Shown here in pieces: positions 16,817-23,958 of a stretch of 64,000 nt of DNA. Source of the stretch: Lachnospiraceae bacterium (GTDB lineage: Bacteria; Bacillota; Clostridia; Lachnospirales; Bianqueaceae). Where the stretch lies: contig JAAWDX010000006.1 of NCBI GenBank assembly GCA_022794035.1, positions 62,001-126,000 of the forward strand. The letters are read 5' to 3'. The translations under genes were made by a program, and so were the position numbers. Below the pieces are notes generated by a model that was not told the DNA's origin, ran no database searches, and saw nothing but the letters and a program-made list of their open reading frames with translations. Position 1 is the stretch's first letter, and each line of letters opens with the position of its first letter.

Positions 16817-18319
16817 TTAGTCTGTTATGATTTCTGTAGTCCCTTCCGGGATCTCTTTGTTTTCCAAACCGCTTACATGGATATTTCGGTTCACTTTGGC
16901 GTCATAGGTTCCAGCCTTCACAATCTCTCCCAGGTCAATTCCTACTGTTTCTTTCATCGATTCAAACAGCTTCGCCATCACATTAGGAACGTTGCCTGAA
17001 ACGGAATCAACACCGCTTCCGTCTCCGCCGATGATTGTAATCTTATCAATCTGCGTCAGAGGCTCAGCGATCTTACCAGCAATATCGGGTAATACTTTGA
17101 TCAGCATTTCCGCCATAGCCGCATTATTGTATTTCTGATACGCTTCTGCTCTCTTTTCCATAGCTTCTGCCTCTGCAATTCCCTTTGCCCGAATCGCCTC
17201 TGCTTCCGCTTCTCCTACGCGGCGAATTCCCTCGGCTTCCTGTTCTTTGGAATAGCGGTCAGCCTCCGCTTTAGAACGCTGAGCCTCCGCCTCTTTTTCA
17301 ATTTCAAATTTACGGGCCTCCGCCTCCTTCTGACGTTCAAATAGATCGGCCTCCGCCTTCTGCTGTCTGGCAAACTTATCGGCTTCCGCCTTTTTCTTAA
17401 CCTCTGCATCCAGTGATTTTTCTTTCGTTTCCGCTTCGCGCTGCTTCAGCAAAACATTTCGTTCCTCGCGCGCGATATTAGCATTGGCCGCCGTCACCTC
17501 AATGGTTTTTCTCTGCTCTTCCTTTTGAATCTCATATGCGGCATCTGCTTCTGCTCTCTTTGTATCAGCTGTTTTCTGCAAATCTGCTTTTTGAATATCC
17601 AGCTCATTATTTTTGATCGCAATTTCACGCTCCGAATTGATCCGGGCATCATTAGACTGCCGGTCAGCTTCTGCCTTTGCCACTGCAATTTCTTTTTCAG
17701 CTTCCGCTTTTGCAATCGCCGCCTTCTTTTTGATCTGAGAAATATTATCAATTCCCAGATCCTCAATCACACCGTTGCCATCCGTGAAGTTCTGCACATT
17801 AAAGCTTACGATATCCAGTCCCATTGCCGCCAGATCCGGATCTGCATTTTCTTTTACCAGCTGTGCAAATTTTTGCCGGTCGCTTACCATTTCTTCCAGC
17901 CGCATGCGGCCAACAATTTCACGCATATTGCCTTCCAAAACCTCGCGGGCCACCTGTGCAATATATTCTGTTTTCTGATTCAGAAAGTTTTCTGCTGCCA
18001 AAGCCAGTTTGTCTTTTTCACTGCTGATTTTAACGTTGACGGCCGCATCCACTTGAATATTGATATAATCTGCTGTTGGTACGGCATTGGATGTCTTTAC
18101 ATCAATCGGTATCAGCTTCAGATTCAGACGGTCTATCCGTTCTAAAAACGGAATTTTAATACTAGACTTACCGATGATAATCTTTTTTCTAAGTCCAGAA
18201 ATGATAAATGCCGTATCCGGCGGTGCTTTTACGTATCCGCTTGCCAAAATCAAAATCACGATCAGAGCGGCTGCAATCCCTATGACCAGCCCTATGTTTT
18301 CTGCAAGTAATGCTAACAT
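16817..18319 (-). CDS. Flotillin (FloT/YuaG-like) SPFH-domain membrane scaffold
   Basis: 500 residues, as in B. subtilis FloT (509). One N-terminal membrane segment (about residues 8-28) precedes the SPFH domain (about 30-200). A long Ala/Glu/Lys-rich coiled coil (about 205-400) with repeated EAEA and AEAD units follows, with a Gly-containing C-terminal region. Flotillins organise membrane microdomains and affect fluidity and secretion. Start ATG has GGAGAG at about 10 nt. The usual NfeD-type partner gene is absent. The gene lies directly downstream of a manganese-type riboswitch and terminator, an unusual control arrangement. Confidence 0.94.
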   Translation of the reverse strand: MLALLAENIGLVIGIAAALIVILILASGYVKAPPDTAFIISGLRKKIIIGKSSIKIPFLERIDRLNLKLIPIDVKTSNAVPTADYINIQVDAAVNVKISSEKDKLALAAENFLNQKTEYIAQVAREVLEGNMREIVGRMRLEEMVSDRQKFAQLVKENADPDLAAMGLDIVSFNVQNFTDGNGVIEDLGIDNISQIKKKAAIAKAEAEKEIAVAKAEADRQSNDARINSEREIAIKNNELDIQKADLQKTADTKRAEADAAYEIQKEEQRKTIEVTAANANIAREERNVLLKQREAETKEKSLDAEVKKKAEADKFARQQKAEADLFERQKEAEARKFEIEKEAEAQRSKAEADRYSKEQEAEGIRRVGEAEAEAIRAKGIAEAEAMEKRAEAYQKYNNAAMAEMLIKVLPDIAGKIAEPLTQIDKITIIGGDGSGVDSVSGNVPNVMAKLFESMKETVGIDLGEIVKAGTYDAKVNRNIHVSGLENKEIPEGTTEIITD

Positions 18320-18477
18320 ATGTTTATTTCTCTCCTTTTTTATTATCGCTCTAGGTCTGCCTCGCTTATCCCCTCTTTTCCTCCTTTCTTAAGAGCTTCG
18401 CCAATGCATCCTCCGTATCCCCGAAGAGCGTATTCAGGGGGAAGTCTCTGTAGACTAAGATCAGATTTCTTATATGC

Positions 18478-18528
18478 AAAAAAGACTTCCAACCATCTCA
18501 AGAATTGCTTCTTGGAATGTTAAAAGTC
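18478..18528 (-). terminator. Riboswitch expression-platform terminator
   Basis: In the minus-strand RNA, GACUUUUAAC can pair with the downstream GGUUGGAAGUC, and CAAGAA pairs with UUCUUG around a GCAA loop, followed by six U residues (18478-18483). The GACUUUU that starts this hairpin is also the 3' strand of the aptamer's closing stem, so the two structures exclude each other: a ligand-bound aptamer should allow transcription to continue. Confidence 0.75.
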
Positions 18529-18615
18529 TCGCACATTTCGTTCGATACGGATACAGCAAAGCTGTATCGACTTGACGCTTTCGAACCATCCATCGGATGT
18601 AGTCTACTCCCTTTT
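18522..18615 (-). promoter_or_regulatory. yybP-ykoY (Mn2+) riboswitch aptamer
   Basis: The RNA begins AAAAGGGAGUAG and ends GCGAGACUUUU, which close into the basal stem. The internal segment GCGUCAAGUCGAUACAGC, its hairpin partner GCUGUAUC, and the following CCG match the conserved L3 loop of the yybP-ykoY family, where the two conserved loops jointly bind Mn2+. Family members normally control Mn exporters (MntP, TerC-type, P-type ATPases). Here the next complete gene is a flotillin. Identification is by recalled consensus, not by a covariance search. Confidence 0.85.
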
Positions 18616-18624
18616 ATGTATTTT

Positions 18625-18653
18625 ATTATACTATTTTCTATATTACTTGTCAA
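18625..18653 (-). promoter_or_regulatory. Consensus sigma-A promoter of the riboswitch-flotillin transcript
   Basis: Perfect TTGACA (18648-18653) and perfect TATAAT (18625-18630) on the minus strand, spaced by 17 nt, place the start of transcription a few bases before the aptamer. Confidence 0.88.
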
Positions 18654-20696: not shown

Positions 20697-22322
20697 TTAT
20701 TCTCCTGCTAATGTAAATGCGAGCGCCTTCTCCAGATCGCGGCAAGCCCCTTCATACGCCTCCCCCAGCGTCTCATATTCCAGTGCATATGCCTGTAGAT
20801 GCCATGATATCGGCATGTAAATAGAGCACTGCGGCAGCACTGCTCCCGCCACATGATCCAGCATATAAGCAATCTGTTCTCTTCGTTCTGATTTTAATGG
20901 GTTAAGCGTATATTGATACTCTTCTCTCTCTTTGCTAAAATCAATCTCTTCTGCCCATGCATTACTAAGTCCTAGATAAAGTGTGTATGTCATTTTCTCC
21001 AGCTCATCCAGCATGTCAGCTGTCACTTTTTTTGAGATAGAAACGCTATAATAAGGTGCATAGTCATGATCTGCTATATATTTCAGCAGTTGATATGCAT
21101 GATATGGATTTTTACTTTCTTTCATCACACCTCCCATCATCTGAATCTCTGCTATATAAGCATCACTCTCTTCATACTTTGAAATCCCTACCATTTTCAT
21201 CTCTTCTTTTTTCTCATCATATAATGTATCTAATGCCATGCACTGCCCGGCAAAACCATGACGATACATACTTTCACTATTACTCTCAATATAAAAAGAG
21301 CCATTGTCTAGCCATGCTTTCGCTTGTTCCTGCATCATGGATATAGTATCTTTTTGGTTATCCAAACTAGCTTCACTACTTGGTACACTTAAAACTGTCC
21401 AATGTTCTGAGTTTAAGTATGAAGATGCATTTCTTACTACTTCTTGCCACTCCTCTTCCATATCCTGCTTAAAATAACTTTTTATAAAAATTGCCATTTC
21501 TTCAAACAGATCTTGATCAAGCGTCACTGTTTGTTCTTCGTAATCAACAGGATCCAGCCCTGTACTCTCCCAAAAGATTGGTATAATCGCAGTCATAGAG
21601 CTCCAGAGTGACAGCGTATCAACCGCGACCTCTCCTTTTTCCGCTCTCATGCACGCTTCCTGCATTTGAATCAGTATTTCTCGCCCATTCATTTCCTGAT
21701 ACAAATAAACGCCTATATCCTCCATTTCTTGATCTGAGGTGAAAATTGCTTTTATATTAAAGCTAAGGGGAAGTATCAGTTGTTTTCCCTGATATACCCC
21801 TGCCTTTAATACTGTTTCATAATACTGCTCTGTCGTATATAGTTCATCCTGATCCGCATATGGTTTTAAATCAAAAAACCACTCTTCTTCGATAATGCGA
21901 TAGATATTATCAATCTGGGCCTCTCCTGCCCATATCCTCTGGTCCATAACAAGCACATCTGGAAACATTCCGCTCTTTTTATCCTCTAAAACTTTCTGTT
22001 CCAGCTCATTCATGCTTATAAAATATTGGATCTCCAGCGTTATCCCTGTCTCCCGTTCAAACTCTTGAAAAGCATCATGATAAATATATCCCCTCTCTCT
22101 TATATCATTAACAACGGGACCAAATGGTCCTATCGTATAATTGGTACAATAATAATCTGTTCTTTCTCCCTCTGCAGATTTACAGCTCACATGATCTCCT
22201 ATCGCATATACCACTAGCTTTTCAGGTTTTTCCTCACTTCTTATAACTCCCTCTTCCTGTGGTATTTGACAGGCTGTTAAACTCATAACCAAAAGCAGGC
22301 AAATCATACCTATCTTCTTCAT
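20697..22322 (-). CDS. Extracellular solute-binding-type lipoprotein (paralogue 1)
   Basis: 541 residues with signal peptide and lipobox SLTAC (Cys about 18). The central part shows features of ABC substrate-binding proteins: a predicted open-close two-lobe region with FPDVLVMDQRIW (about residues 118-129), LPLSFNIKAIFTS (about 183-195) and MGGVMKESKNPYHAYQLLKYI near 405-425. It is clearly homologous to the next gene along its full length (about two thirds identical by eye), with an almost identical C terminus. Gap to the neighbour genes is 7 and 19 bp. No transporter partner is visible, so uptake, sensing or cell-wall roles are equally open. Confidence 0.82.
   Translation of the reverse strand: MKKIGMICLLLVMSLTACQIPQEEGVIRSEEKPEKLVVYAIGDHVSCKSAEGERTDYYCTNYTIGPFGPVVNDIRERGYIYHDAFQEFERETGITLEIQYFISMNELEQKVLEDKKSGMFPDVLVMDQRIWAGEAQIDNIYRIIEEEWFFDLKPYADQDELYTTEQYYETVLKAGVYQGKQLILPLSFNIKAIFTSDQEMEDIGVYLYQEMNGREILIQMQEACMRAEKGEVAVDTLSLWSSMTAIIPIFWESTGLDPVDYEEQTVTLDQDLFEEMAIFIKSYFKQDMEEEWQEVVRNASSYLNSEHWTVLSVPSSEASLDNQKDTISMMQEQAKAWLDNGSFYIESNSESMYRHGFAGQCMALDTLYDEKKEEMKMVGISKYEESDAYIAEIQMMGGVMKESKNPYHAYQLLKYIADHDYAPYYSVSISKKVTADMLDELEKMTYTLYLGLSNAWAEEIDFSKEREEYQYTLNPLKSERREQIAYMLDHVAGAVLPQCSIYMPISWHLQAYALEYETLGEAYEGACRDLEKALAFTLAGE
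20723..20897 (-). repeat. 175-bp near-identical block, copy 1
   Basis: This 3' segment of the lipoprotein gene at 20697-22322 matches 22356-22530 of its paralogue with 5 mismatches in 175 bp by eye, including a perfect run of more than 80 bp. The rest of the two genes is visibly more diverged. Confidence 0.85.
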
Positions 22323-22329
22323 TGTAATC

Positions 22330-23958
22330 TCACCCCTCTTTTAATGTAAACATCAGCGCCTTCTCCAGATCGCGACAAGCCCCTTCATACGCCTCCTCCA
22401 ACGTCTCATATTCTAGTGCATATGCCTGTAGATGCCATGATATCGGCATGTAAATAGAGCACTGCGGCAGCACTGCTCCCGCCACATGATCCAGCATATA
22501 ATCAATCTGTTCTCTTCGTTCTGATTTTAAGGGATTCAGGACATATTGATACTCTTCTCTTTCTTTACTCAGATCAATATTTTCGTCCCAAGTATTTCCT
22601 AATGATAAATAAAGCTTATAGGTCATTTTTTCTAACTCATCCAGCATATGAGTGGTCACCTCTTTAGATACCGAAACGCTATAATACGGTGTATACTCAT
22701 GATCTAAGATAAATTTCAGCAATTGATATGCATAATAGGGGCTTTCACTTTCTTTCATCACACCGCCCATCATCTGCACCTCTGCTATATAGGCATCGCT
22801 TTCCCTGTACATCGGAATTCCGATCATCTGCATCTTTTCTTTTCTCTCATCATATAAAGTATCTAATGCCATACACTGACCAGTAAACCCATGCCGATAT
22901 GTACTATTACTGTTTCCTTCCACATAAAAGGCACCATTTTCAAGCCACATTTTCGCCTCTTCCTTTTGATGAATCGCCGGACTATTCCTTTGTGCATCCA
23001 GACTGTTATTCCAGTCTGGCATATCCATGATGCCCCACTGGCCGGAATTCAGATATACAGCAGCATTCTTTACAATCTCATCCCAGTTTTCTTCCATATC
23101 TTGCTTAAAATAAGCCTTTATAAAGACTGCCATATCTTCAAACAAATCCTGATCCAGTGTCACTGCTTGCGCCTCATAATCAACAGGAGGCAGTCCTGTA
23201 CTTTCCCAAAAAACCGGTATCATCATGCTTGCAGAGCTCCATAGCGATAATGTATCAATGACTGGTTTTCTTTTTTCTGCTCTGACACAGGCCTGCTCCA
23301 TTTGCATTAACAGCTCCTGCCCGTTCATTTCCGGATATAAGTAAATTCCCGTATCCTCCATAGTTTGCCGAGATGTAAAAATTGTCTTTATATTAAAGCT
23401 TAATGGCAGCAGCAACTGACTATTCTGATAGGTTCCAGATTCTAAAACCTTTTCATAGTAATTGCCATTCGTATAAAGCTCATCCTGATCTATATACGGT
23501 TTTAAATCAAAAAACCAATCACCATTTAAAATTCGGTACATATTATTGCCATTTTTAAAGTCTACCCATGCTCCCTGATCTATAATAAGTACATCTGGTA
23601 CTTTTCCGTATTTTCTATCTTCTAAAACTTGTTCCTCCAGTTTATCTAAATAGGGAAAATACTGAACTTCAGCTTTTATCCCAGTTTTCTCCTCAAAATC
23701 TTGAAAAGCCTCATAATAAATATATCCTTTTTCACCTGCTTTATCTACCAAAGGGCCAAAAGACCCCATTGTATAACTCGTACAATAGTAGTCTGCTCTT
23801 TCCCCATTGATTGTACGATTTACTTTATCTCCTACAGCATAAATAATCAACTTGTCTGGTTTTTCACTTGAAACACTCGGCTCCGTTTGTATCTGATTTG
23901 TTTGGCAAGCTGTTATTATAAAAATTATAATTGCACAGATTATACATACTTTTCTCAT
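22330..23958 (-). CDS. Extracellular solute-binding-type lipoprotein (paralogue 2)
   Basis: 542 residues, lipobox ITACQ (Cys about 18). Same architecture as the neighbouring paralogue: DKLIIYAVGDKV near the mature N terminus, VPDVLIIDQGAW (about 118-129), LPLSFNIKTIFTS, GQCMALDTLYDERKEKMQ, and a shared C-terminal LDHVAGAVLPQCSIYMPIS. Start ATG has AGAGGA at about 7 nt. Probably the first lipoprotein of the three-gene tandem, downstream of a candidate small ORF and a hairpin. Function not known; the fold points to ligand binding outside the cell. Confidence 0.82.
   Translation of the reverse strand: MRKVCIICAIIIFIITACQTNQIQTEPSVSSEKPDKLIIYAVGDKVNRTINGERADYYCTSYTMGSFGPLVDKAGEKGYIYYEAFQDFEEKTGIKAEVQYFPYLDKLEEQVLEDRKYGKVPDVLIIDQGAWVDFKNGNNMYRILNGDWFFDLKPYIDQDELYTNGNYYEKVLESGTYQNSQLLLPLSFNIKTIFTSRQTMEDTGIYLYPEMNGQELLMQMEQACVRAEKRKPVIDTLSLWSSASMMIPVFWESTGLPPVDYEAQAVTLDQDLFEDMAVFIKAYFKQDMEENWDEIVKNAAVYLNSGQWGIMDMPDWNNSLDAQRNSPAIHQKEEAKMWLENGAFYVEGNSNSTYRHGFTGQCMALDTLYDERKEKMQMIGIPMYRESDAYIAEVQMMGGVMKESESPYYAYQLLKFILDHEYTPYYSVSVSKEVTTHMLDELEKMTYKLYLSLGNTWDENIDLSKEREEYQYVLNPLKSERREQIDYMLDHVAGAVLPQCSIYMPISWHLQAYALEYETLEEAYEGACRDLEKALMFTLKEG
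22356..22530 (-). repeat. 175-bp near-identical block, copy 2
   Basis: Counterpart of 20723-20897; see there for the comparison. The blocks are direct repeats about 1.63 kb apart, as expected from a tandem gene duplication. Confidence 0.85.

Follow-up and report, generated by a model that had tools for sequence, protein, structure and literature searches.

Organization of the flotillin locus

The window, as the whole 64-kb stretch of DNA analysed here is called, carries on its minus strand a flotillin gene preceded by a promoter, an aptamer of the manganese type, an intrinsic terminator, and an untranslated stretch (Table 1). The encoded protein matches PF01145 (Band_7; 88.8 bits, 5.9e-25) and PF15975 (Flot; 41 bits, 2.3e-10), both above the curated cut-offs, but its match to the FloT model NF058507 (3.2e-99; 333 versus 700 bits) does not reach the NCBIfam equivalog cut-off; it is a member of the flotillin family and not a called FloT equivalog. 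As the original prediction had it, flotillin is the first gene downstream of the leader, with no Mn exporter or any other gene in between.

Table 1. Features of the flotillin locus, in window coordinates
Feature	Position	Strand	Description
Sigma-70 promoter	18625..18653	-	TTGACA 18653-18648, 17-nt spacer, TATAAT 18630-18625
Mn2+-class (yybP-ykoY) aptamer	18518..18619	-	Found with model R1; helices covary in relatives
Intrinsic terminator	18478..18529	-	Cannot form together with helix P1 of the aptamer; CUUUUA 18526-18521 common to both
Untranslated stretch, terminator to flotillin	18320..18477	-	158 nt; includes an isolated AAGGAGG
Flotillin gene	16817..18319	-	500 aa; SPFH and flotillin C-terminal domains; ribosome site AAAGGAGA upstream

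The promoter, described beforehand as a perfect TTGACA-N17-TATAAT, does match the consensus at all 12 of 12 positions, and comparable promoters are found ahead of nearly all related SPFH leaders. The terminator is a hairpin (18529-18484; -21.4 kcal/mol) followed by six T (18483-18478), and its 5' arm begins with AGACUUUUA, a segment that takes in the P1 3' strand of the aptamer. A mutually exclusive terminator had been proposed at 18478-18528, and this overlap bears the proposal out; it would couple the expression platform to the formation of P1. Among 25 SPFH leaders examined, 20 have a terminator in the same place, and in most such leaders, as in the window, it competes with P1; no terminator was called in three Band-7 leaders, where the T run is interrupted, and no clear terminator with a U run was found in the flotillin leaders L140 and L145.

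No conserved open reading frame lies between terminator and flotillin, the window having only a 12-amino acid stub there, and a lost or hidden gene in this spacer was rejected as none is conserved. The isolated AAGGAGG, or GGAAAGGA, at 18380-18386 also occurs in flotillin leaders of relatives; it lies some 65-210 nt ahead of several flotillin start codons, is not followed by a conserved open reading frame, and resembles an mRNA-stabilising Shine-Dalgarno element. In the window sequence, the aptamer segment GUAGACUA (18600-18607) is perfectly complementary to UAGUCUAC past the terminator (18450-18457). Since the same-strand tRNA cluster upstream of the leader ends in its own terminator-like hairpin (18726-18696), and a putative ComM-like gene, named from its sequence, converges on flotillin from downstream, flotillin probably forms a one-gene transcript. 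Elsewhere in the window, at 20697-23958, lies a tandem pair of paralogous genes for lipoprotein-like products (541-542 amino acids) whose C-terminal ends are nearly identical.

Assignment of the aptamer to the Mn2+ class

The Rfam model of the yybP-ykoY class, RF00080, was the check named in the original prediction, and absence of a match was to count against it. RF00080 gives no match to the window leader, either at the gathering score or at E<=10, and none elsewhere in the genome. A purpose-built model, R1, does find the aptamer. R1 was built from alignment A3, which consists of 24 pattern matches, all ahead of exporter-type genes (P-type ATPase, CaCA, MntP), and has a hand-drawn structure of five helices; the window and all SPFH-linked leaders were absent from its training set. 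Two earlier alignments, A1 (nine sequences) and A2 (34 sequences including MntP leaders), were not made into models, since their sequences were misaligned at P3, and a similarity search with the leader DNA gave only short chance matches.

On the window, R1 matches 18619-18518 of the minus strand with 47.1 bits (E 1.4e-8) and matches nothing else in the 64 kb or anywhere in the 2.3-Mb genome; the aptamer coordinates first given (18522-18615) were right within a few bases. The core consists of GGGAGUAG (18611-18604), CGUCA in loop 3, and GCGAGAC (18532-18526), in keeping with the conserved L1 GGAGUAG, L3 (C)GUCA, and 3' GCRAGAC that surround a covarying P1 to P4 fold. The window holds a single instance of the core pattern GGGAGTAG..GTCA..GCRAGAC (18526-18611), and 362 Mb of sequence simulated to resemble the window gave only two. 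When GGGAGTAG, GTCA, and GCRAGAC were searched with limited gaps in 392 genomes of the window's order, the pattern was present in 100 of them, compared to six matches with the reversed control. In the R1 training set, 88.6% of helix cells are paired, with 108 double-change cells, a value that none of 500 shuffles equalled, and covariation is far above both shuffled and slid controls. The 18 flotillin leaders likewise covary (89.8% paired, 65 double-change cells), in an alignment that was fitted to the model.

In 41 relatives RF00080 finds five places only, none above the cut-off. Aptamers ahead of evident P-type ATPase and CaCA genes escape it, and so do most of those before undoubted exporters in the order. 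Even the validated E. coli mntP leader scores 41.6 bits, below the cut-off of 45. The miss at the window is therefore no valid refutation, and failure at the gathering score is treated here as a failing of the model and not as a defining biological feature. R1 is tied to the known Mn2+ class because the two models coincide at the E. coli mntP leader, where the R1 match is weak (13.7 bits) yet the best one present, and at L001-L005, of which L003 had been used to train R1. By sequence and covariation, then, the window leader is real and fits the Mn2+ (yybP-ykoY) class, as its match to a structure model derived from exporter-linked members, some of them shared with RF00080, indicates. As the current Rfam model misses many members, target lists based on RF00080 are probably incomplete. 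SSRC10 (RF02617), a streptococcal small RNA in Rfam, matches a flotillin-linked Mn-type leader (L083:3095-3217, E 1e-4), and may itself be a Mn-type riboswitch.

Conservation of the aptamer before flotillin

Sufficient upstream sequence and a match of sufficient length qualified 115 flotillin loci for counting. In 18 of these (17 besides the window) the aptamer precedes flotillin, and in the well-supported clade containing the window (support 98) it is present in nine of ten, including Robinsoniella peoriensis (L181). The expected conservation of the pair in relatives was thus found. The 18 leader-bearing loci are spread over several genera and two or more family codes, and none of them has an exporter between the leader and flotillin; an exporter placed there in relatives would have told against direct control. 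Most flotillins of the order have no aptamer, including those of L007 (74% identical and from the same family) and L178 (84% identical). On the flotillin tree, presence of the aptamer needs eight changes, at least seven of them forced by well-supported branches, but this count is soft, as the tree is a quick one with some long branches, and gains are not distinguishable from losses.

Seen from the side of the aptamers, nine of the 111 distinct ones found with the pattern in the 392 genomes precede flotillin, compared to a rough chance expectation of about 0.02. Neither flotillin nor HflK was found behind any of about 57 aptamer loci in the wider phylum sample, so the link to these genes has so far been seen only in the window's order. 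One flotillin leader, L246:2680-2817, keeps all helices while its core departs at three places (GGGAACAG, CGACA, GCCAGAC), possibly through a changed ligand or decay.

Other targets of Mn-type aptamers

About 70 of the 111 aptamers of the order precede exporter-type genes, as judged by sequence motif, while four precede a single Band-7 protein and five a HflK-like protein, with a HflC-like gene next to the latter where the locus extends far enough. The proteins of L159 and L163 pass the HflK equivalog cut-off. The Band-7 and HflK-like loci are L067, L098, L100, L101, L126, L138, L159, L160, and L163, those with Band-7 proteins coming from four genomes of the window's own family. In the phylum-wide sample, aptamers that R1 confirms precede genes for NfeD1b, a M48 peptidase (HtpX-like), a neutral zinc metallopeptidase, PspA, LemA with TPM, and TerC; these are single or few cases, and chance associations are possible among them. 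Loci L298, L289, L287, L296, L311, and L297 hold the aptamers before NfeD1b, M48 peptidase, PspA/IM30, LemA with TPM, and neutral zinc metallopeptidase genes.

Two further groups of targets were observed. A protein of about 140 amino acids, with no match to the Pfam and NCBIfam models tested, follows the aptamer in L127, L131, L135, L155, L156, L164, and L165, in some of which a YccF-like gene comes next. Genes resembling the oxaloacetate decarboxylase beta subunit (OadB) follow it in L068, L071, L072, L137, L162, L286, L312, and L313.

The window's own genome has one MntP (G000:C10), and there is no riboswitch in front of it; a candidate riboswitch at that place was rejected, and another reading frame ends just upstream of MntP. 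By both R1 and the pattern, flotillin is the sole gene in this genome with a Mn-type switch. It is about an even bet that Mn2+-class riboswitches in Bacillota serve, besides exporters, a recurring set of membrane quality control genes (flotillin, HflK/HflC, other SPFH proteins, NfeD, M48 and YugP-like peptidases, PspA, LemA), with metal load being read as a demand on membrane proteostasis and with the one switch detected in this genome placed on flotillin and not on MntP.

Proposed mechanism and alternatives

The aptamer, promoter, terminator overlap, gene order, and conservation make it quite probable that the leader is a transcriptional metal-ON riboswitch of the Mn2+ (yybP-ykoY) class driving a single-gene flotillin transcript, and direct control of flotillin by such a leader, as originally predicted, is the best-supported reading of a pair conserved with no exporter in between. 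At low metal, the nascent RNA would fold the terminator and transcription would stop. When Mn2+ or a related divalent metal is present, it would dock loops L1 and L3 and so stabilise helix P1, which would keep the CUUUUA strand from the terminator and allow RNA polymerase to continue into flotillin. The added flotillin would most likely aid membrane-protein quality control and secretion under metal load.

The possibility that AT-rich intergenic DNA resembles a riboswitch here by chance can be virtually dismissed: the lack of a Rfam match would be expected of a chance structure, but the E value from an independently trained model, the rarity of the pattern in simulated sequence, the covariation, and the conserved position would not. 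It is extremely unlikely that the leader is a leftover whose Mn exporter once stood before flotillin and has since been lost, leaving flotillin under accidental control. An exporter could have parted from its leader, given that MntP of this genome has no riboswitch; this reading is nevertheless rejected because none of the 18 leader-bearing loci, diverse as they are in genus and family code, has an intervening exporter, and the spacer has no conserved open reading frame. The promoter, aptamer, and mostly the terminator have also been retained in flotillin leaders, and the suggestion of a lost exporter, which accompanied the original prediction, is contradicted by the same order of leader and flotillin at 17 other flotillin genes.

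The direction of the switch and its ligand invite two further alternatives. One review terms Mn riboswitches OFF switches (PMC11477304), and in a metal-OFF device the bound aptamer would favour termination. Since the terminator 5' arm contains the 3' strand of P1, stabilisation of P1 by metal should instead block termination and give an ON switch; moreover, there would be little point in Mn2+ silencing its own exporters, and excess Mn turns on the Mn2+ riboswitch of E. coli mntP, which has been studied by experiment (PMC11647493), so that an OFF device seems very unlikely here. An aptamer related to yybP-ykoY with its pocket shifted to another divalent metal (e.g. Fe2+, Co2+, Ni2+, or Cd2+), to which flotillin would answer in place of Mn2+, is given a low but appreciable chance. 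Variants of altered specificity are expected in a review from the Breaker laboratory, where they would explain gene contexts unfit for Mn2+ (PMC7266159). Two nucleotides past GTCA in L3, 10 of 15 flotillin-linked aptamers have a purine versus 3 of 55 linked to CaCA or P-type ATPase genes, counts that ignore relatedness, and such a purine may alter affinity or specificity; the L246 leader, with its altered core and retained helices, points the same way. Against a shifted pocket, the window and almost every other flotillin leader keep the core of GGGAGUAG, CGUCA, and GCRAGAC unchanged, and HflK- and OadB-linked aptamers are exporter-like or mixed at the varying position. Mn2+ is accordingly regarded as the likely and not the proven ligand of the flotillin-linked aptamer, because these aptamers vary beside the L3 core and other-metal yybP variants are expected.

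Relation to known systems

Bacterial flotillins have been studied as scaffolds and, to our knowledge, the signals that set their amount are poorly known. A conserved and repeatedly acquired metal-type riboswitch before flotillin and other SPFH genes would be a direct, testable input on flotillin amount, and would add membrane upkeep to metal export in the regulon of Mn2+ riboswitches. The class itself is known, but in the openly licensed literature no report was found that links yybP-ykoY or manganese riboswitches to flotillin, SPFH proteins, HtpX, or PspA, or that describes conserved use of the class before flotillin and other SPFH genes. The recurring pairing suggests that metal overload is tied to membrane maintenance and not just to metal pumping.

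Reports from other bacteria suggest a reason why genes of these kinds might answer to one metal switch. The TerC proteins that export Mn in B. subtilis co-purify with FloT, FloA, FtsH, and HtpX, and FtsH becomes essential once these TerC proteins are absent (PMC10550928, PMC10246235); membrane localisation of PspA in the same species requires a SPFH protein (PMC8581546). Zinc efflux platforms in mycobacteria do not need flotillin (PMC9374683), which counts against too simple a picture. The proposed switch agrees with the finding in B. subtilis that TerC proteins exporting Mn cooperate with FtsH, HtpX, flotillins, and the secretion machinery.

Compared to FloT/YuaG, the window protein shares the SPFH and flotillin C-terminal domains, a length of about 500 amino acids, and a hydrophobic N-terminal segment, but it stands alone behind a metal-type riboswitch and falls under the NCBIfam FloT equivalog cut-off. 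The leader resembles known RF00080 members (E. coli mntP, B. subtilis ykoY, and L. lactis yybP) in its L1 and L3 core loops, P1 closing helix, inner hairpins, leader position, and terminator-overlap platform; unlike them, it scores too low for the Rfam model and has as its apparent target a membrane scaffold in place of a transporter or TerC protein. A further parallel is with MeeF and MeeY, the B. subtilis TerC proteins for Mn export and exoenzyme metalation, as meeY (ykoY) is under a Mn riboswitch and their partners (FloT/FloA, FtsH, HtpX) are of the same kinds as the genes found here behind the riboswitch. In that system flotillin is a physical partner, whereas here flotillin itself would be the target of the riboswitch.
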